Origin: Desulfonauticus sp.
GTDB lineage: Bacteria; Desulfobacterota; Desulfovibrionia; Desulfovibrionales; Desulfonatronovibrionaceae
Direction: 5' to 3'
Assembly: GCA_030950395.1 (NCBI GenBank)
Contig: JAUZRP010000050.1
Span: 1-64,000 of the forward strand
DNA length: 64,000 nucleotides
This document shows, in pieces, positions 1-30,365 of this stretch (position 1 is its first letter; every line of letters starts with the position of its first letter). Position numbers and translations under genes: made by a program. The notes beneath the pieces were generated by a model that ran no database searches, was not told where the DNA came from, and saw nothing but the letters and a program-made list of their open reading frames with translations.

Positions 1-140
1 TCAGAACGACGTAAAGACGTGGTCTCCTGAGGCTTTACTTCCAAAAGAGAAGCTCTAGAGACATCAAGCCCGCAAAGACAAGAGAGCACCGTCTCCTTAC
101 AACGAGAAAGTATCACCTTGGCCGCTATGTCGTAATACAT
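1..140 (-). CDS. N-terminal part of an unrecognised protein, cut by the window edge
   Basis: An open frame starts with ATG at 140-138 on the minus strand and runs off the left edge without a stop, giving 46 residues that begin MYYDIAAKVIL and contain PQETTSLRRS near the end. The composition is protein-like, while other frames here are short or interrupted. The opening is loosely reminiscent of the N-termini of Rpn-type or PD-(D/E)XK transposase-like nuclease proteins, but this is memory-based and weak. No clear Shine-Dalgarno sequence precedes the ATG. The catalytic part, if any, lies outside the window, so no function is assigned. Confidence 0.5.
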   Translation of the reverse strand, partial: MYYDIAAKVILSRCKETVLSCLCGLDVSRASLLEVKPQETTSLRRS

Positions 141-291
141 AAAATTAGATTAGCAATAAAAGGTTTAAAATTCAAGGAAAGAGCAAAAAAGGTCTTCTGA
201 CTAAAGTATAAAAAGTTATAAAAAGTAATTCTTCCAAACTATGCTAAAAACAAAAAATCTTTTTAGCGAAAAAAACAATACAAGATGTAAA

Positions 292-388
292 TGCAAAAGC
301 CCAAAATTTGTTTTTTTGGGGGTAAACCGTCAAAATGTAACCAGATTAACTTTTAATTGCTCAAAATAATTTTTGCAGCTAAATAGTT
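292..388 (+). repeat. dispersed intergenic element, copy 1
   Basis: This gene-free stretch (141-484) holds three blocks that recur in the same order at 55281-55401: TGCAAAAG.CCAAA.TTTG followed by a T run (292-318), TAACC.ATTAA (338-349), and TGCTCAAAATAATTTTTGCA (358-377) followed by GCTAAATA. The last block differs from the second copy mostly by transitions. A minus-strand relative of the third block lies at 3085-3115. A GGGTTAA block follows each copy at variable distance. No coding frame is seen here. The function is unknown; it could be a non-coding RNA, a repeat family or shared regulatory DNA. Confidence 0.4.
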
Positions 389-484
389 ACGAAAAAATAA
401 CTGCCTTCTTTTAGTCTTTTGGACGTGCCAATTTGGGCATTCAAGGGGTTAACCAGTCATAGTTGACAATATTTGAATTAATCG

Positions 485-8314: not shown

Positions 8315-9076
8315 ATGGATCTTGCTACCATAATAGGGATAGTAATTTCTTTTGGCCTGGTTGCTGGAGCTATTGTTACGGGTGGCAGCCCTATGATCTT
8401 TGTCAATATCCCCTCAATGCTTATTGTTTTGGGTGGGACTATTGGAGCGACACTGGTAAATTATCCCTTAGGGCATGTGCTTGGGGTTATAAGTGTTATG
8501 AAAAAAACATTTTCGGCAAAAATAGAAAACCCAGCCCAGATAATAGAAAAATTTATTGATTATGCCAACAGGGCCAGACGAGAAGGCATACTTGCTTTAG
8601 AGCCTGTTATTAAAGATGCCCAGGATCCATTTCTCAAAAAAGGCCTGCAACTCACAGTAGATGGCATGGAACCCCAAATTATTCAAGAAATCTTAGAAAC
8701 TGAAATATCTTATATGGAAGAAAGACATGAGTTAGGAGCAGAAATATTGACCATTATGGGAGCATTTGCCCCTGCCATGGGCATGATAGGCACTGTTATT
8801 GGACTGGTGCAGATGCTCCAAAACATGAGCGATCCCAGCAGTATCGGTCCTTCTATGGCTGTTGCTTTGATTACCACTTTTTATGGAGCAGTACTTTCCA
8901 ATTTAATCTTTAATCCCATGGCGGGAAAATTAAAAACCAGAAGTAAGGAAGAACGCTTAATAAAAGAAATGATCCTGGAAGGTATTTTATCCCTGTCCAA
9001 AGGGGAAAACCCTAGAATAGTAGAGGACAAACTAAATAGTTTTATTCCTCCAAAACTACGTAAACAGTCAGAATAA
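8315..9076 (+). CDS. motA: flagellar motor stator protein MotA
   Basis: MotA forms, with MotB, the inner-membrane ion channel that drives flagellar rotation. The 253-residue protein has two N-terminal membrane helices (about 5-25 and 30-50), a cytoplasmic loop with EPVIKDAQDPF and EERHELG-like charged segments that contact FliG, and two C-terminal helices with the conserved AFAPAMGMIGTVIGLVQML and ITTFYGAVLSNLIF stretches. AAAGGGGAATCT precedes the ATG. The stop TAA overlaps the motB ATG by one base, so the two are translationally coupled. Confidence 0.95.
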   Translation: MDLATIIGIVISFGLVAGAIVTGGSPMIFVNIPSMLIVLGGTIGATLVNYPLGHVLGVISVMKKTFSAKIENPAQIIEKFIDYANRARREGILALEPVIKDAQDPFLKKGLQLTVDGMEPQIIQEILETEISYMEERHELGAEILTIMGAFAPAMGMIGTVIGLVQMLQNMSDPSSIGPSMAVALITTFYGAVLSNLIFNPMAGKLKTRSKEERLIKEMILEGILSLSKGENPRIVEDKLNSFIPPKLRKQSE

Positions 9077-9909
9077 TGGCCAAAAAAGAAAAAGTAGAAC
9101 AAGAAGAAGAAGGTATCCCTGCCTGGCTGGTTACCTTTTCAGATATGATGACGTTATTGTTAACCTTTTTTGTACTTCTGCTTTCTATGGCTTCTCTAAA
9201 AGATGAACAAAAGGTAAAACGAGCCATAGGCTCTCTAGCTGGCTCTTTTGGCCTTGGTCCCACAGGGATCGTCCCCTTTGAAGAACCCCACGGTAAAGTT
9301 GGAGCAGAACCAGGCCCTCTGGAAGATGTAAAAGACTTTCAAAGCCTCAAACCAATGCTCTGGGATGAGAAAAAATGGGATATTGACTTAATGTCAAATA
9401 AGTTTATCCAAATTTTAGAATTAGGGCCAGAGGTATTGTTTAGCCCAGGGAGTTCTAAATTAACCCAACAAGGCAAGCTGCTTTTGGCTAAATTGGTACC
9501 AATCTTAAAAAAAATAAAATATCCGATAGAGTTAAGAGGACATACGGCAAGTCTAAGAGATGAATTTGGTCCAGATTATATGCTGCAACAACAAAAATCT
9601 AAATTGGATCTATCCTGGAAACTATCTTTAGCCAGGACGTTAGCTGTCTATCGTTTTTTTTTAGACGCGGGAGTAAAACCCGAAAAAATACGTCTGGAAG
9701 CCTTTGGACGGTTTAGACCACGCTATGCTAACACCACAAGCAAAGGACGACAAAGAAATCGTCGCGTAGAGCTAGTGTTAGATAAACGTATCTCTTCCTG
9801 GGCAGTGCAAGAAATAATAAAATTTAAAGTAAAAACAAAAATAAAACGCGATAAATTCATCTATAAAGACTTTATTTTTGACCTAAACGGTACTAGTTTA
9901 GAAAAATAA
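9076..9909 (+). CDS. motB: MotB-like stator protein with OmpA domain (first of two)
   Basis: A 277-residue B-subunit follows motA with a 1-base overlap. The short cytoplasmic N-terminus leads into one membrane helix with the channel aspartate, TFSDMMTLLLTFFVLLLSM. A periplasmic linker follows, then an OmpA/MotB peptidoglycan-binding domain from about residue 130 with ELRGHT, SLARTLAVYRFF and KGRQRNRRVEL. It anchors the stator to the wall and supplies the ion-binding residue. A second B-type gene follows directly, so this is one of two candidates to pair with the single MotA. Confidence 0.9.
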   Translation: MAKKEKVEQEEEGIPAWLVTFSDMMTLLLTFFVLLLSMASLKDEQKVKRAIGSLAGSFGLGPTGIVPFEEPHGKVGAEPGPLEDVKDFQSLKPMLWDEKKWDIDLMSNKFIQILELGPEVLFSPGSSKLTQQGKLLLAKLVPILKKIKYPIELRGHTASLRDEFGPDYMLQQQKSKLDLSWKLSLARTLAVYRFFLDAGVKPEKIRLEAFGRFRPRYANTTSKGRQRNRRVELVLDKRISSWAVQEIIKFKVKTKIKRDKFIYKDFIFDLNGTSLEK

Positions 9910-19326: not shown

Positions 19327-20412
19327 ATGCTTAAGGAAATAAAAATCAACACTTTTAAATGTTTCAAAGAGATAGAACTTCGCTCTTTCAAAAAAGTAAA
19401 TATTATTTTTGGCAAGAATAATAGAGGTAAAACTGTATTTTTAGAAGCTATTTCCTTGTTGTTTTCTAACACAAATCCCAGACAAATCTTTAATCTTTTA
19501 AGAGGGATGCCTGTTTCTTTTCCCTTGCAACGGGAAATCTGGAGCATTTTGTTTTACGAATTAGATATGACTAAAACAATAAAAATTTCAGGAAAAGTAA
19601 ACGAACTTGAGGCAGAGGTAGAGATTTGTTCTTCTGCTTCACAAACTTTTCCGAGCCAGACTCAATCTTTTTACCCGGAAAATTCTTTGTTTTTACATTG
19701 GAAGTACCAAGGAAAAGATTTAAAGGCTTATCTTACGTATAATGAAAATTTTTTAAAAAATTTTGTTCCTGCTTTTTCGTTCCCTATTATACCCATGTCC
19801 CCCGCATTAGATCCTTTTATTGTTCATTTTTCTGGGAACCTCAAGTCGCCCATATTAGAAACCGTTTTTCACACTTCTTTAGGACGAATGGACGTGCAAC
19901 AAGTCTCTCAAATGTTTGGAGAGTTGGTTAGAAAAAATTATAAAAACTTGCTAGTTAATTTGCTTTCAGAACTGGATAATTCTATAAAAGACATAGAACT
20001 TATGTCTTTTAATGGCAACAGCATCGTAGGTGTAAAGATAAAAGATAAATTTTATCCTATCAACCAGTTGGGAGAAGGCTTTTATAGAATATTTGTTTTA
20101 TCCTGTCTTTTTGTTCAAAGAACAAATGGAATAGTTTTAATAGATGAAATAGAAAACGGAATTCACCATAGTATTCAGGGAATGGTTTGGAAGTGGTTAT
20201 TAGATATGTCTGAGAGGTTTAATGTGCAGGTATTTATAACAACACATAGCTGGGAATTTATTATTAATGCTCTTGAAAATACAGAAAATTTCAAAGAACT
20301 ACAGGGCATCAGATTTGAAACGGGAAATGAAAAAAATCAAGAAATTATTCCAGTAGTAATCTCGGGAGAGGAGCTTAAAGAGATGGTGGAGCAAAATTAT
20401 GACGTTAGATGA
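19327..20412 (+). CDS. AAA/ABC-type ATPase of an ATPase-Toprim pair
   Basis: This 361-residue ATPase is of the AAA_15/AAA_21 (RecF/OLD-like) type. It begins with LKEIKINTFKCFKEIEL, has Walker A GKNNRGKT (residues 29-36), an ABC-like signature region NQLGEGFYRI near 246, Walker B GIVLIDEIENG with D273-E274, and the H-loop TTHSWEF near 305. Such ATPases dimerise head to tail. The 14-base overlap with the next gene, a Toprim-like protein, gives the same parts as OLD nucleases or PARIS-type systems split over two genes. A defence or DNA-damage role is inference. It interrupts housekeeping genes and reads on the same strand. Confidence 0.85.
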   Translation: MLKEIKINTFKCFKEIELRSFKKVNIIFGKNNRGKTVFLEAISLLFSNTNPRQIFNLLRGMPVSFPLQREIWSILFYELDMTKTIKISGKVNELEAEVEICSSASQTFPSQTQSFYPENSLFLHWKYQGKDLKAYLTYNENFLKNFVPAFSFPIIPMSPALDPFIVHFSGNLKSPILETVFHTSLGRMDVQQVSQMFGELVRKNYKNLLVNLLSELDNSIKDIELMSFNGNSIVGVKIKDKFYPINQLGEGFYRIFVLSCLFVQRTNGIVLIDEIENGIHHSIQGMVWKWLLDMSERFNVQVFITTHSWEFIINALENTENFKELQGIRFETGNEKNQEIIPVVISGEELKEMVEQNYDVR

Positions 20413-21064
20413 CAAACAAAAATGTTATAAACCTAAGTCAATAGAAAAAGAAGCTTGTATATTTGTAGAAGGCAAACTTGATCAAATAATAGTTGAATTA
20501 CTTTTAAAAAGTATATGCTCCAAAGAAGTTATAGAAAATATTCAAATATTTCAACTCGGTGGCAAAGCTGGTTTAAAATATGTAAAAAAGATGGAAAATT
20601 TTAATCAGCTTAAAGCTGTTTTGGTAATCCTTGATAAGGATGAAGATTACAGGTCCACTTCCCAAACAATTGATAATTTTTTTAAAGATTTGCCTAAGCA
20701 ATGTCAATGTCAACTAAAATTTATATCTCCTCCAGATAAGTTATCTGGCAAAGAATTAGAAGAGTATATAATAGAAGGCATTAAACATTGCAAAAAAAAC
20801 AAACTCATTGAGGAAATAAAAAAATGTATTGATAGTTTAATAAAAAACAAATTAACAAGCGAGAAAAAACTTGGTAAAAAGATTTTATTTACTTATTTCT
20901 TATTGAAAGATACTTGTACATACGATGGTTTATCTCTTAATAGAGATCAATTCCAAAGCTGTATAAAGACTTCATTAGATGGTCTTGTAGAACTAAAAAA
21001 TATTTTAGAAAATTTTATAAAATTTGTAAATAAGAATTTAAATGTCAAACAACTTAACGTATAA
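20399..21064 (+). CDS. Toprim-like partner protein (DUF3226/DUF4435-like)
   Basis: This 221-residue protein overlaps the ATPase gene by 14 bases. It shows a Toprim-like core: the acidic loop FVEGKLDQI (E24, D28) after a strand, GGKAGLKYV as the second loop, and VLVILDKDED with D79 and D81 as the metal-binding D-x-D. This fits DUF3226 or DUF4435-type proteins. The remainder is Lys-rich and helical. It is likely the effector (nuclease or ligand-binding) controlled by the ATPase. The pair is quite A+T-rich and Lys-rich. Family naming from memory is uncertain between the two DUFs. Confidence 0.75.
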   Translation: MTLDDKQKCYKPKSIEKEACIFVEGKLDQIIVELLLKSICSKEVIENIQIFQLGGKAGLKYVKKMENFNQLKAVLVILDKDEDYRSTSQTIDNFFKDLPKQCQCQLKFISPPDKLSGKELEEYIIEGIKHCKKNKLIEEIKKCIDSLIKNKLTSEKKLGKKILFTYFLLKDTCTYDGLSLNRDQFQSCIKTSLDGLVELKNILENFIKFVNKNLNVKQLNV

Positions 21065-24453: not shown

Positions 24454-24678
24454 ATGAACGGATGGAATTTCATGGCCAAGACGTTTATTTATCTGGGGAT
24501 ATTTTTTATTGTGTTAGGTGTTTTGTTCCTATTGGCAGATAAATTACCCTTTCGGTTGGGTAGATTGCCAGGAGACATCGTGTACCACAAAGGCAATTTT
24601 AGTTTTTACTTCCCCTGGGTGAGTTGTTTGGTGGTTAGTGTGGTTTTAAGTCTGTTATTTATGTTGTTTAAAAAATAA
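24454..24678 (+). CDS. DUF2905 family small membrane protein
   Basis: A 74-residue protein with two membrane helices: AKTFIYLGIFFIVLGVLFLLA and FPWVSCLVVSVVLSLLFMLF. The loop between them contains RLGRLPGDIVYHKGNFSFYFP, the hallmark of DUF2905. GAAGGGGAAAAAG precedes the ATG at 24454. The function is unknown. Confidence 0.88.
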   Translation: MNGWNFMAKTFIYLGIFFIVLGVLFLLADKLPFRLGRLPGDIVYHKGNFSFYFPWVSCLVVSVVLSLLFMLFKK

Positions 24679-24707: not shown

Positions 24708-25136
24708 ATGCCTTTTGGCTTTGGATGGGGACGAGGTAGAGGAAAATGTGGCAGTGGTGGCATATGTGCTCGCGGAAGAAAACGTTTTTTACCAGAAGAA
24801 GATAAATTTTGCATCTGCCCCAGATGCAAAACTATTATCCCACACCAACGAGGAATTCCCTGTTATCAAACGATCTGTCCTCAATGTGGTAGCCCAATGA
24901 CCAGACAATTTTGCCAGCAAGATGGTGATAGGGCTAAACCTCAAAAAGCCCTCTTGCCTTACGTTGATAAAAACTTATGTACTGGATGTAAAAATTGTCT
25001 GGACATCTGTCCAACAGGTGCTCTGCAATACGTGGACAACAAAGCTGTAATTGACGTCCAGACCTGCAAAGGGTGTTTGGCCTGTCTGGACGCTTGCCCT
25101 GAAGGAGCAATTAAACATGGAAAAAACAACCAATAA
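24708..25136 (+). CDS. 2[4Fe-4S] ferredoxin with zinc-ribbon-like N-terminus
   Basis: This 142-residue protein has three parts. A Gly/Arg-rich start (FGFGWGRGRGKCGSGG) is typical of proteins associated with NifX-like genes. A ribbon with CPRC and CPQCG spans about residues 38-62. The C-terminal ferredoxin domain has two full cluster motifs, CTGCKNCLDICPTG and CKGCLACLDACPEG. It is probably an electron carrier or cluster donor. GGAGG precedes the ATG. The CDF-NifX gene begins inside its last codons, linking the two genes functionally. Confidence 0.85.
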   Translation: MPFGFGWGRGRGKCGSGGICARGRKRFLPEEDKFCICPRCKTIIPHQRGIPCYQTICPQCGSPMTRQFCQQDGDRAKPQKALLPYVDKNLCTGCKNCLDICPTGALQYVDNKAVIDVQTCKGCLACLDACPEGAIKHGKNNQ

Positions 25137-26418
25137 AACCCAACAGTTAAAAAAAGGTCAAAAAGTCGCTTTTTGGGCCACTTTTTTTACCTTGCTTTTG
25201 GCAATACTTAAAGGTGTGGCGGGGATATTGTACAATTCCAAAATGCTACTAGCAGATGCTTTGCATAGCGGTGCAGACAGTGTTGCCATTTTTGTCTCAG
25301 GATTGGGATTGTGGATAGCCGCACATAAAAAAAGTGAAAAATTCCCTTATGGTTTATACAAGGTAGAAACTTTGGGAACATTATTTATAGGAGTATTTAT
25401 TCTTTGGGCAGGAGTAGAATTGTTTCTGGATGGTTACCACAAATTATTTGACCATCCTAAAATTATTGAATTTCCCACAATACCTCTATTTGTTACCATA
25501 ATTTCAATTATTACAGCTTATTTTATTGCCCACTACGAAAAAAAAGTAGGCAAACAAATTAATTCCCAATCCCTTATTGCCAATGCCCAAGAATCTTTTC
25601 TAGACATTATTTCATCCATAGTAGTTTTACTAGGAATCTTACTTACCTACTGGCGTATCCCCTACGTAGAAGGCATAATTATTATGCTAATATCTCTATT
25701 AATTTTTAAACTGAGCTTTGAAAACATATATAACCCTCTGTTAATTTTATTAGATGCCAATTTAGACGAGGAATTACAGAAAGAAATTAAATTACTAATA
25801 GAAACAGTTCCTGGAGTAAAAGAAATTCATATAGTTAAAATCAGACAAGCAGGCCCTTTTAAATTTGTAGAAATAGAATTTAGCACCAATCCTTCTATTA
25901 GTCTTTATCATGCTCATTCCATAGCAGATGAAGTTGAAAAACGAATAATGGAAAAATATTCGTCTGTAGAATCTGTGTTCATCCATGTGGAACCGTCAAA
26001 ACAAAAAATGATTCGAGCCATCTTGCCTGTAAAAAATATAGATGGACTTAATTCTATAGTACATAACCATTTTGGAAGAGCACCTTACTTTGTATTCGTA
26101 AAAATATCAGACAACAAAACAATAGAAATCGAAGATTTTTACTTTAACGAATTCTTGGACAAAAAACAGCACATAGGGTTACACGTAGTCAAAGTTATTG
26201 TAAACTATGACCTGGACATATTGTTTACAAGTCAAATTGGCGAAATTTCCTTTTACATGTTAAAAGAAAATTGTATAGACGTGTATCAAATTTTGGAGGA
26301 AAACGTTTCTGTCCAACAAGTAATTGAAATGTATCGTCAAAATAAACTGCCTAGATTAACGGCCCCTACTCATCCAGCAGACAAATCAATGGTAGTAAAA
26401 GAGAATAAAAACGACTAA
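25117..26418 (+). CDS. cation diffusion facilitator fused to a NifX/NafY-like domain
   Basis: The first ~300 residues are a CDF metal/proton antiporter: six membrane helices, LADALHSGADSVAIF in helix 2 with the metal-binding D residues, and ANAQESFLDIISS in helix 5, then a cytoplasmic ferredoxin-like domain (VPGVKEIHIVKIRQAG, HSIADEVEKRI). From about residue 305 a second domain of the dinitrogenase iron-molybdenum cofactor (NifX/NafY) type follows (LNSIVHNHFGRAPYFVFV, LHVVKVIVN, VQQVIEMY). The ATG at 25117 is preferred over 25051 because GGAG lies before it and homologous sequence starts here. It likely exports Fe, Zn, Co or Ni; the metal is not determined. Length is 433 residues. Confidence 0.85.
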   Translation: MEKTTNKTQQLKKGQKVAFWATFFTLLLAILKGVAGILYNSKMLLADALHSGADSVAIFVSGLGLWIAAHKKSEKFPYGLYKVETLGTLFIGVFILWAGVELFLDGYHKLFDHPKIIEFPTIPLFVTIISIITAYFIAHYEKKVGKQINSQSLIANAQESFLDIISSIVVLLGILLTYWRIPYVEGIIIMLISLLIFKLSFENIYNPLLILLDANLDEELQKEIKLLIETVPGVKEIHIVKIRQAGPFKFVEIEFSTNPSISLYHAHSIADEVEKRIMEKYSSVESVFIHVEPSKQKMIRAILPVKNIDGLNSIVHNHFGRAPYFVFVKISDNKTIEIEDFYFNEFLDKKQHIGLHVVKVIVNYDLDILFTSQIGEISFYMLKENCIDVYQILEENVSVQQVIEMYRQNKLPRLTAPTHPADKSMVVKENKND

Positions 26419-26460
26419 ACTTAATCAAAAACAGTAGTCAAGAAAACCTACCATATAACA

Positions 26461-26506
26461 ACTCCAAGGCAAAAAAAATCGTTTGCCCCCAGTGGCAAAT
26501 TGGAGT
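26461..26506 (+). promoter_or_regulatory. candidate alternative-pairing RNA element before the His-rich gene
   Basis: Three complementary segments lie in a row: GGCAAA (26468-26473), TTTGCC (26482-26487) and GGCAAA (26494-26499). The middle one can pair with either neighbour but not both. Outer arms ACTCCAA (26461-26467) and TTGGAGT (26500-26506) enclose them as a perfect 7-bp stem. There is no T run, so it is not a standard terminator. Its position between a metal exporter gene and a His-rich metal-binding gene makes a regulatory RNA possible; this is inference from pairing alone. Confidence 0.35.
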
Positions 26507-26541
26507 AAATAAGGTAAAAAAAACAAATGAGGAGGAAACTT

Positions 26542-26718
26542 ATGTGCAAAGATTGTGGATGCGGCCAAAAAGACTCTAAGTATGGGAAATTTATCCACGA
26601 ACACGAACATAGACATGGAGATTTAGTACATTCTCATCCCCACGAACATGAGCACGAGCATGATCCGGTCACAGGTGAAATCATTGAACATCATCACGAG
26701 CATAAAAACACTAAATAA
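26542..26718 (+). CDS. small Cys/His-rich metal-binding protein
   Basis: A 58-residue protein that begins MCKDCGCGQKD and is dominated by histidines (14 by my count) in HEHEHRHGDLVHSH, HEHEHEHD and EHHHEHK. The CxxCGC start recalls the nickel-binding N-terminus of HypB, and His-rich tails are common in zinc/nickel chaperones, but there is no GTPase domain. GGAGG lies seven bases before ATG 26542, so I prefer it to an upstream start at 26527. It probably buffers or delivers Zn, Ni or Co for the CDF pump upstream. Confidence 0.8.
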   Translation: MCKDCGCGQKDSKYGKFIHEHEHRHGDLVHSHPHEHEHEHDPVTGEIIEHHHEHKNTK

Positions 26719-27922: not shown

Positions 27923-28318
27923 TTATTTTGATTTTTTCTCGTTATTTGCCTTGTGACATTCGCCACACATCACTGGACCTCTTTTTTCTTTTAGATGACA
28001 CCCCATGCAACGTTTATGATAAGCCTCTCTAAGAGAAATAGGATTGTCCCCCTTTACTGGATGAACTTTGTGACAACTGGAACAAGGCTGATCTTCTGAA
28101 GACTCGTCAGGAACGAGTTTGCCATTTTTATACACGTGATGACACACACTACAATTTTCTATGTGGGCTTTCTCATTATGCAAGTCATGATGAAAAATGA
28201 CCCTTGGACGTTCAGGAGACTTAAATTCTTTTCCCAAAATTAAATAATCTTCCTGGCCCAAACAAATGCTTGCTAGACCTAAAAATGCAATTATTAAAAT
28301 CAACGTTTTGATTTTCAC
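27923..28318 (-). CDS. tmcA: tetraheme cytochrome c3, TmcA-like
   Basis: This periplasmic class III cytochrome has a signal peptide (IKTLILIIAFLGLASICLG) and four CxxCH heme sites in order: CSVCH, CSSCH, CMGCH and CGECH. Extra histidines (FHHDLHNE, CHHVYK) provide the bis-His ligands usual for cytochrome c3. In Tmc complexes TmcA takes electrons from periplasmic hydrogenase/cytochrome c3 and hands them to the membrane part. I choose the GTG at 28318, which has AGAGGG seven bases upstream; a GTG at 28357 would add 13 residues ahead of the signal peptide. It is last in the transcription order. Confidence 0.85.
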   Translation of the reverse strand: MKIKTLILIIAFLGLASICLGQEDYLILGKEFKSPERPRVIFHHDLHNEKAHIENCSVCHHVYKNGKLVPDESSEDQPCSSCHKVHPVKGDNPISLREAYHKRCMGCHLKEKRGPVMCGECHKANNEKKSK

Positions 28319-28363
28319 AGCTTTCCCTCTTTTTATGTATTTTAAGGTTAAGATCACTTTTGC

Positions 28364-29668
28364 TTATTTTTCCATGCATTCGTATATAATATCGCCTAAA
28401 AACTTTAATTTCATGCCCAAGTTATAGTAATGGATAATGTCTTCCAAACCACCGTGACAATTGTGACAGGGGGCAATTACAACTTTTACTCCTGTGGCTT
28501 TTAATTGCTCTGCCTTAATCTTATTACCCTCTACCCTGGTCATTTTAAAAGGAGGACCACAATTAATTACGCCTCCGCCTGCGCAACAGCAATAATTGTG
28601 TTCACGGTTAGGATGCATTTCTACCACATTTTCACAAAAAGCATGCACCACTTCTCTTAACATTTCGTGGAGCCCCATACCCCTTACAATATTACAAGGA
28701 TCATGGATAGTAACAGGGGCTTCAAACTTTTTCGCTACTTTTAATCTTCCTTCCTGAAGCAATTCCCAGTAAAACTGCACAGCATGGATAACCGGAATGG
28801 GCATATTTTTCCAGCCTAACCAGCGGTTTCCCACGTCATATACAGATCTATAGGCATGACCACATTCACCCATTACTATTCTTTTTACTCTTAGACGCCT
28901 GGCGGTCTCAAAATGAAGTCGTTTTAACCTGCCCATAACTTCATAATCGCCAAGATACATAGCCATGTCACTATTATCCCATCCGGGAGTAGCAGGCATG
29001 GTCCAATTTACTTTGGCCACGTGCATAATGACCGCAGCCTGATAAATGAGTTGGGTCCTAAATTTTGGCTCTGGTCCTATTACAGAATATAAAATATCTG
29101 CCCCCTCTTTTTCTAAAGGAATACGTAAATCAGGGATTTCGTCTCTTGCTTCATCTTCCTGCCACTGCAAACTATCTATCCACTCGTCATCTTTTACCCA
29201 CATCTGGTTCATAGTGGCAGCATGACTATGGGAAGTATCCTGAATGTACATAGGAGCTACACCAAGCTTAAAACAAATCCTTCGCACCATACTTAATAAA
29301 TAAGCGATGTCTATACCAAAAGGACAATACATAGAACATCTTTTGCATAAGTTACATTCAGTATAAGCAATTTTAGCCATGTCCAAAATATCTCGAGGAC
29401 TGACGCTTCCCTTCGCTTGCACCAACTTCCACAGGGTCTGCTTTACCTTGCCCACAGGAGAATACCTAGGGTCATTATCGTGAGATAAATAATAATGACA
29501 GGCCTTAGAACACAAACCACAGTGCATACACGTCTGAATGTAGGCCTGTAAACGGGCTCCTGTTTCTTTGCTAATAGTCTCGTTTACTATTTTTTGAATC
29601 TTGTTAGTATCAAGTTGCTTAATCCCTTGTATCAAACCTTCATCTTCTAATACTTTGTTGTTTCCCAT
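28364..29668 (-). CDS. tmcB: TmcB-like iron-sulfur protein (HdrD-type)
   Basis: This 434-residue cytoplasmic-side redox protein carries two 4Fe-4S motifs in the N-terminal part, CMHCGLCSKACHYY and CNLCKRCSMYCPFG, and CCG-type (heterodisulfide reductase D) cysteine clusters in the C-terminal half, seen as HDPCNIVRG, YCCCAGGG and APCHNCHGG. The related DsrK and HmcF share this plan; the neighbours (one tetraheme cytochrome, a short cytochrome b and a Trp-rich propeller protein) favour Tmc. It would receive electrons from TmcC and pass them to a cytoplasmic thiol/disulfide or sulfite-reduction partner. tmcA follows 45 bp downstream. Confidence 0.85.
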   Translation of the reverse strand: MGNNKVLEDEGLIQGIKQLDTNKIQKIVNETISKETGARLQAYIQTCMHCGLCSKACHYYLSHDNDPRYSPVGKVKQTLWKLVQAKGSVSPRDILDMAKIAYTECNLCKRCSMYCPFGIDIAYLLSMVRRICFKLGVAPMYIQDTSHSHAATMNQMWVKDDEWIDSLQWQEDEARDEIPDLRIPLEKEGADILYSVIGPEPKFRTQLIYQAAVIMHVAKVNWTMPATPGWDNSDMAMYLGDYEVMGRLKRLHFETARRLRVKRIVMGECGHAYRSVYDVGNRWLGWKNMPIPVIHAVQFYWELLQEGRLKVAKKFEAPVTIHDPCNIVRGMGLHEMLREVVHAFCENVVEMHPNREHNYCCCAGGGVINCGPPFKMTRVEGNKIKAEQLKATGVKVVIAPCHNCHGGLEDIIHYYNLGMKLKFLGDIIYECMEK

Positions 29669-29705
29669 GGCTCTACCTTTTTATAATTTTTTAAGTTTGT
29701 TATAG

Positions 29706-30365
29706 TTACCAATCTTTGACGTGTCTTACGCCACCAAACTCAGAACCAATATAAACTCTGGTCAATAGCCCTACGAACATATGTATCAAGCGAGTAAAGG
29801 GAAAGGCAATGAGCAAAATCTCTGCAGACAAAACGTGCAAAACTAGCATCAACTTATAATCTATCCAACCATGATAGGCTATAAAGCCAAACAAAAATGG
29901 TGCAGTTACGAGTGACAACAACAAAAAATCTGTCCAAGAAGTGACAAACTTTACTTCTTTGACCCATAATCTCCGCCCCCAAAAAAAGGCCAAACATAAC
30001 AACACAATAAGCGTCAAAATATCTCCTAGTTTATCAGGTATGGTCCACCAACTAACAGACCAAAAAGTCTCCACTAAAACCACATGTCCCGTAATAAAAA
30101 GAGGTACGATTAAAACACAAAAATGAAACGCAAAAGAGACTAACGTAAAAAGAGGATTTTCTTGCATACTTATAGTACCAAAAGGAATTAACCAGTGGAT
30201 TAAAGACCTAAATCCATATTTAGGGCTAAAATAAGCCAAAACTACCCGATCCTTCTTGGGCGTGGCCAGAATAATTGCCCCTATTTTGCAAATACAACCC
30301 AAAATAAAAACACTAAAGGCTATCCAAGCGCCTGGTCCAATTAAAAAACCGTAAATCTTGTCCAT
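29706..30365 (-). CDS. tmcC: TmcC-like cytochrome b membrane subunit
   Basis: This 219-residue membrane protein has about five hydrophobic segments and resembles NarI/DsrM-type cytochromes b. Conserved histidines lie in candidate heme-binding helices: FHFCVLIVPLFITGH, YHGWIDYKLMLVLHVLSAE and FTRLIHMFVG. It should carry b-type heme and move electrons across the membrane between TmcA and TmcB. tmcB follows 37 bp downstream. A 133-bp gap with a hairpin separates it from the tmcD-like gene upstream. Confidence 0.82.
   Translation of the reverse strand: MDKIYGFLIGPGAWIAFSVFILGCICKIGAIILATPKKDRVVLAYFSPKYGFRSLIHWLIPFGTISMQENPLFTLVSFAFHFCVLIVPLFITGHVVLVETFWSVSWWTIPDKLGDILTLIVLLCLAFFWGRRLWVKEVKFVTSWTDFLLLSLVTAPFLFGFIAYHGWIDYKLMLVLHVLSAEILLIAFPFTRLIHMFVGLLTRVYIGSEFGGVRHVKDW

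Follow-up and report, generated by a model that had tools for sequence, protein, structure and literature searches.

Why should a CDF exporter carry a domain of the type found in NifX and the orange protein (ORP), and do the genes beside it belong to the same system? The question is raised by three forward-strand ORFs in a 64,000-nucleotide stretch of Desulfonauticus sp. DNA (contig JAUZRP010000050.1; hereafter the window), all within positions 24708-26718, where an initial annotation made from the sequence had also placed them. That annotation read them as one metal cluster made up of a ferredoxin with a zinc-ribbon-like start, a CDF with a NifX/NafY-like domain and a HypB-like His-rich peptide, and envisaged transport controlled by a bound cluster. 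The roles of ORP/NifX-type domains outside nitrogenase assembly are poorly known; in the part of their paper available to us, the authors who described MrpORP consider the role of its ORP domain still unclear (PMC6345978). Judged by titles and abstract openings, the open-licence literature held no description of a CDF-NifX fusion, and the accessible part of PMC7170241 contained nothing of use on extra domains in CDFs, so that this family of pumps looks unstudied. Here we describe the anatomy of the locus, the conservation of its parts and its history, and weigh what the added domain may do.

Results

Layout of the locus

The features of the locus are collected in Table 1. Gene 1 begins with a ribbon whose six cysteines follow the order CxCxxC...C....CxxC and continues into a 2[4Fe-4S] ferredoxin, as the initial annotation had proposed. 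GC content (44.3% in gene 1, 32.9% in gene 2 and 36.1% in the window) gave no clear signal of origin. Neither the window, where only two tRNAs were detected, nor 16 loci contained a riboswitch; riboswitch control was therefore rejected, and the metal is not named by such an element. A promoter scan returned 4 sites, fewer than in shuffled sequence (mean 8.2). Elsewhere in the window, a 361-aa ATPase-like ORF, recognised by eye, adjoins a 221-aa companion (19327-21064, + strand), possibly a defence or toxin-type ATPase pair, and three ORFs on the opposite strand (27923-30365) resemble by eye DsrJ, DsrK and DsrM of the sulfate-reduction membrane complex.

Table 1. Features of the ribbon/CDF-ORP locus, in window coordinates.
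Feature	Nucleotides	Residues	Strand	Details and basis
DUF2905 gene, resident left flank of the probably inserted pair	24454-24678		+	Pfam 1.3e-23; syntenic in congeners
Gene 1, Cys6 ribbon fused to two-motif ferredoxin	24708-25136	142 aa	+	
Gene 1, ribbon part with Gly/Arg-rich start	24708-24911	about 1-68	+	
Gene 1, ferredoxin part		about 84-137	+	Pfam Fer4 1.4e-12, two stretches
Overlap of genes 1 and 2	25117-25136		+	20 nt, different frames
Gene 2, CDF exporter with ORP/NifX-type domain	25117-26418	433 aa	+	
Codons H50 and D54, TM2 side of predicted transport site	25264-25278	50, 54	+	YiiP alignment, conservation
Codons E159 and D163, TM5 side of predicted transport site	25591-25605	159, 163	+	YiiP alignment, conservation
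ZT_dimer cytoplasmic domain	25762-25995	216-293	+	Pfam, structure model
ORP/NifX-type domain	26008-26373	298-419	+	Pfam 312-407; 2wfb fold match 298-419
HFGRAPYF motif	26068-26091	318-325	+	Conservation; used as well for retrieval, with a second pattern
Shine-Dalgarno-like AGGAGG preceding the peptide gene	26530-26535		+	
His-rich CxxCGCG peptide gene, resident right flank, outside the conserved pair	26542-26718	58 aa	+	ATG 26542

Gene 2 encodes a CDF exporter with an added ORP/NifX-type domain

Gene 2 matches three Pfam domains above their cut-offs: Cation_efflux (4.6e-46, 157.5 bits against 26.6), ZT_dimer (1.5e-20, 73.4 bits against 26.7) and Nitro_FeMo-Co (PF02579; 7.5e-14, 52.2 bits against 26.3). 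The first two, together with two ligands on each of TM2 and TM5, place the protein in the CDF family, and PF02579 with a matching fold places it in the Nitro_FeMo-Co (NifX/ORP) family as well. A phmmer alignment to YiiP puts H50, D54, E159 and D163 at the predicted transport site, an HD-ED quartet of the kind reported for CDF clade 8 in the accessible part of PMC5703985; the equivalents of YiiP H263, H285 and D287 are H267, H290 and E292. An AlphaFold2 model built from a 48-sequence alignment (pLDDT 87.8, pTM 0.70), which superseded one built from 6 sequences (pLDDT 68.5), resembles YiiP up to about residue 297 (Z up to 24.4 at rmsd 9.4; 21.3 at rmsd 4.4). Residues 298-419 match the Desulfovibrio gigas orange protein (2wfb) with Z 18.7 and rmsd 1.5 over 116 residues, and further structures of the NifX/NifB-type family. 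In the model about five residues separate the two cytoplasmic domains: the last ZT_dimer strand reaches residue 293, and the added domain opens with a strand at 298. The genome, 96.9% complete, contains no second CDF that we could find and no match to nitrogenase-type Oxidored_nitro. The label NifX/NafY-like was thus correct at superfamily level, although among solved structures the orange protein matches best, and a nitrogenase link, or a NifX/NafY protein proper, was rejected for want of any Oxidored_nitro gene.

The CDF-NifX fusion is a genuine and widespread architecture. A scan of one genome per species matched 174 relatives, from which 80 loci were kept and 57 with a CDF frame like that of the window (L036-L092) were used, L093-L115 being left out. 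The 57 come from KSB1, Caldithrix, Omnitrophota, Nitrospirota, many deltaproteobacterial groups, a spirochaete and archaea. The three Pfam domains occur together in all 48 rows of the alignment of what we call subfamily I (46 of the 57, the window protein and L011), and likewise in 30 of 30 proteins of a mixed set, 22 of which belong to a second, more distant subfamily in the window's own phylum. Subfamily I has an HD-ED site, with E in 39, D in 7 and H in 2 of the 48 at position 159; subfamily II has an HD-HD site, with H there in 21 of 22. A tree of the CDF parts with 16 plain CDFs needed one change for each subfamily, and a single clade of all fused CDFs was not rejected (p-AU 0.48), which is no proof of such a clade. 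Within the phylum, 53 of 297 genomes have a CDF frame of fused length, a class defined by frame length and alignment end and not in each instance by Pfam; of the 90 CDF matches, 9 could be assigned to neither the fused-length nor the short class.

The added domain has a conserved motif and no conserved cysteine. Conservation of HFGRAPYF within subfamily I arises partly by construction, because HF[GA]RAPYF served in part as a retrieval pattern; H318, G320 and P323 are nevertheless present in 22 of 22 members of subfamily II, which the motif did not retrieve. No cysteine is conserved in the domain in either subfamily (no column with 5 or more Cys among the 48 rows), and a Cys-ligated Fe-S cluster was rejected on that ground. 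The CXHFGHCE and CDH motifs of the MrpORP type are likewise absent, HFGRAPYF standing in their place. Since those Cys/His motifs were proposed as the ligands in MrpORP, their absence weakens the case for cluster binding without excluding it. The ORP cluster is described as non-covalently bound in the available part of PMC6345978, and the single Cys of IssA is placed in its tail, outside the globular domain, in that of PMC5524996. Cluster-controlled transport is one possible mechanism.

The ribbon protein is a conserved partner of CDF-ORP

Genes 1 and 2 make up a conserved pair: in 41 of the 51 loci with enough upstream DNA (six of the 57 had too little), the CDF gene is immediately preceded on the same strand by a ribbon ORF, with a gap of -11 to 113 nt. 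It is the ribbon that is conserved, the ferredoxin being an addition: at 38 of the 41 loci the ORF measures no more than 64-96 aa, and it extends into a ferredoxin only in the window and at three loci from KSB1 (L036, L039) and Caldithrix (L037). In 32 aligned ribbons, including that of the window, the six cysteines are invariant and every tail carries a net charge of at least +4 (median +7), with a median of 31.5% Gly. Searches of Pfam and NCBIfam gave weak matches to generic zinc-ribbon models and to no others.

Across the 297 genomes of the phylum, ribbon and fused-length CDF co-occur (37/16/82/162; Fisher p 2e-6, not corrected for kinship). A ribbon lies within 10 kb in 13 of the 53 genomes with a fused-length CDF as against 1 of 27 with a short CDF, and the single exception (G003) is a 118-aa fragment of the fusion at a contig edge, 60% identical to the window protein. 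The partner can be dispensed with, since ten testable loci (six bacterial, four archaeal) are without it and no ribbon match was found in 16 of the 53 genomes with a fused-length CDF. At two archaeal loci without a ribbon, L083 and L086, a DUF134-like gene, recognised by eye, adjoins the CDF-NifX gene; in L086 it overlaps the CDF start and has a zinc-ribbon-like stretch of its own.

The same ribbon also accompanies NifX domains in single chains. The ORP-type cluster of the Desulfonauticus genome is not beside the pair but on another contig (C72, locus L128). It comprises two MinD-type ATPases with ferredoxin motifs and DUF5320-like and metallo-beta-lactamase-like proteins, all named by reading, together with PF02579 matches: a NifX protein with MrpORP-like HFGHCE and CDH motifs, and a further NifX protein. 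The locus also encodes a 196-aa protein (8607-9197) made up of a NifX domain, a Gly/Arg-rich linker or tail and, last, the same Cys6 ribbon. Frames like this one occur in many genomes of the phylum and may correspond to the IssX-like proteins that the IssA paper mentions. Of 147 ribbon matches in the phylum, 34, this one included, sit in frames of 155-320 aa; among 21 such longer frames checked (20 fetched and our own), Nitro_FeMo-Co was matched at E 1e-3 or better in 16 and not in the other 5. In several, a Met lies inside the frame at the point where a free ribbon would begin, so separate translation of the ribbon is possible.

A MinD-Fer4 ATPase, a stand-alone NifX-type gene or a NifU-like gene lies near at least 32 of the 57 loci, and none of these was seen at 25; adding metallo-beta-lactamase and DUF5320 genes, with domains scanned on representatives, raises the count to at least 37. 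Both counts are lower bounds because flank lengths differ. A ZIP transporter or a molybdate-type binding protein stands beside some of the 57.

The His-rich peptide is a resident gene beside a probably inserted pair

The free-standing 58-residue peptide is a real gene, given that two congeners carry orthologues (82 and 75% identical), and its 14 histidines, counted in a 63-aa frame, all fall within the 58 residues. In both congeners RNase G, QueH, HemW and DUF2905 stand in the same order as in the window and the peptide follows directly (L182 5869-6042 and L183 3648-3821), starting 50 and 101 nt after DUF2905, with neither ribbon nor CDF between. In the more distantly related genomes G300 and G301 of the family, RNase G, QueH and HemW are retained, in G301 together with DUF2905, but no such peptide was seen there. 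The empty site in both congeners marks the peptide as resident and the pair as a probable insertion next to it. The peptide next to ribbon and CDF genes is thus particular to this one genome.

The HypB-like label is weak. NCBIfam HypB_prefix_1 scored 18.3 bits against a cut-off of 30, and there is no HypB GTPase part. The genome's own HypB (219 aa, L129 1176-1835), beside a HypA-like ORF, has no His-rich prefix, for which reason the peptide could conceivably act as such a prefix in trans. Peptide matches occur in 16 of the 297 genomes, ours included and the congeners lying outside that sample; the nine inspected are His-rich stretches of larger frames, except for one 112-aa His-rich frame (G161). 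The notion that the peptide has no free-standing homologue proved wrong. Its core is similar to His-rich tails found on larger frames that look like transporters (84% over 25 residues in one case), which on reading appear to be components of Co/Ni ABC systems. A Peripla_BP_2 protein adjoins the peptide in both L182 and L183, with urease accessory genes further on in L183; in congener G298 such a protein, and further on a UreG-like GTPase and UreF, are neighbours that hint at nickel. The peptide has a gene separate from the pair and is probably a Ni/Co or Zn buffer.

The ribbon-ferredoxin and CDF-ORP pair has its nearest relatives among KSB1/Calditrichota genes. The window CDF is 69% identical to that of KSB1 locus L036 and at most 52% identical to the full-length relatives drawn from its own phylum; in the tree it shares a group with L036, L037 and a spirochaete on a long branch (SH-aLRT 98), and the pairing with L036 has support of 96/74. 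None of 60 relatives gave a match to gene 1 at E 1e-20, and the best CDF matches of the congeners (G297, G298) are unfused: these frames, 308-311 aa in length, stop where the CDF part stops. No such frame was found in the Desulfonauticus genome, as if a resident unfused CDF had been replaced there by the fused one. Taken together, the gene tree, the absence from relatives and the empty site lead us to infer horizontal acquisition, probably of a two-gene cassette that entered between DUF2905 and the peptide. We consider an assembly artefact unlikely, since gene order on the left agrees with that of the congeners and the right-hand peptide is orthologous to theirs. We have high confidence in the anatomy and history of the locus as described.

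Discussion

In this study we found that a CDF exporter with an ORP/NifX-type domain recurs with a small ribbon protein as its partner, an arrangement that differs from each of the systems it recalls. Gene 2 has the transmembrane part and ZT_dimer in common with YiiP/FieF and MamM, as judged by alignment and model, yet these have a DD-HD site where gene 2 has HD-ED, and lack its added domain and conserved ribbon partner. The D. gigas ORP has the fold of the added domain; it is, however, a stand-alone soluble protein with a Mo-Cu cluster and only 26% identity to the gene 2 domain. In MrpORP (Orp9/Dde3202) a NifX-type domain is likewise appended to a metal-handling module, according to the available part of PMC6345978, but that module is an Mrp/NBP35 ATPase. 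FmpB of Desulfovibrio magneticus RS-1, in the accessible part of PMC4287615, has a NifX/NifB-type domain appended to an iron biomineralisation protein, a magnetochrome/PDZ protein and not a CDF. IssA of Pyrococcus furiosus belongs to the same domain family and works with a cationic Gly-rich tail, proposed to hold anionic thioferrate bound by the same kind of domain; as far as the available part of PMC5524996 goes, that tail is on the same chain, with no ribbon described and no transporter, whereas here it is on the neighbouring ribbon protein.

We tentatively propose that efflux is tuned by a metal-sulfide species held between the ORP domain and its ribbon partner. The CDF part would export a divalent metal, by our guess Fe2+ or Zn2+, through the HD-ED site. 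The ribbon protein would dock on the ORP domain, an interaction proposed because the two are fused in one chain elsewhere, also in the Desulfonauticus genome. By analogy with IssA, the cationic Gly/Arg tail and six cysteines of the ribbon may then, with the ORP fold, hold an anionic metal-sulfide species, whose occupancy would alter the cytoplasmic dimer and so tune export, a metal overflow valve under sulfidic conditions. The ferredoxin fused to the ribbon in the window would add a redox input or receive clusters. In support of this proposal we count the computed ORP fold, the ribbon upstream and its fusions to NifX domains, the excess of nearby ribbons in genomes with fused-length CDFs, the cationic Gly-rich tails and the MinD, NifX and NifU neighbours, as well as the empty site, the absence in relatives and the tree. 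Against it stand the lack of conserved cysteines, the loci without a ribbon, the distance of the pair from the genome's ORP-type genes, the tail charge, which is a mere analogy to IssA, the lack of a riboswitch naming the metal, and the transport site, a poor predictor of the metal in CDFs according to the accessible part of PMC5703985. Our literature search also found no experiments on any member of the CDF-ORP family. That the whole amounts to a split IssA-type sensor on a CDF pump, with a thioferrate- or ORP-like metal-sulfide held by the ORP domain and a separate Gly/Arg-tailed Cys6 ribbon, and that this widespread family would serve anaerobes as an overflow valve for sulfide as well as metal, we regard as unlikely.

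About as likely as metal-sulfide tuning is an ordinary homeostasis exporter, in which the ORP-like domain is a dimerisation or docking module without a cluster and the ribbon a Zn2+ chaperone or sensor subunit. Retention of H267, H290 and E292, each in 46 of 48 sequences, the absence of conserved cysteines and the purely generic zinc-ribbon matches all fit such a protein; it accounts less well for the residues of the family motif that persist throughout subfamily II and for a ribbon that accompanies NifX domains both with and without a CDF. Alternatively, the CDF could be the metal-supply arm of an ORP/NifX-type cofactor assembly, moving or handing metal between the membrane and a soluble MinD-NifX machinery and not acting as a safety valve. 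The MinD-Fer4, NifX and NifU-like genes and the ZIP and molybdate-type binding proteins at some loci would suit that role, as would ANME-2a, where a CDF, 4Fe-4S proteins, a Nif-type protein and a P-loop NTPase have nearby locus tags and nickel uptake was proposed, with no fusion mentioned in the available part of PMC12622379. Characterised CDFs, however, are exporters, as stated in the accessible part of PMC5703985, and the loci with none of those assembly genes nearby argue further against a supply arm, which we consider improbable.

Least probable, and by a wide measure, is the three-gene metal unit of the initial annotation, with the peptide buffering the metal of the CDF. In its favour is adjacency on one strand in the window, but its co-occurrence across genomes held only for the ribbon and CDF-ORP genes: the peptide is near none of the 57 relatives, stands directly behind DUF2905 without the pair in both congeners, and in G298 has periplasmic-binding and urease accessory neighbours instead. 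We rejected the unit on the strength of the empty site and the absence of the peptide from the 57.

Altogether, a conserved transporter that carries an ORP/NifX domain, often near genes of the same kinds, ties these proteins to the flux of metal across the membrane, and the ribbon and CDF-ORP proteins provide a small two-protein system in which that tie can be tested. If a metal-sulfide species does gate the pump, anaerobes would possess a new mechanism for sensing their metal load in the presence of sulfide.
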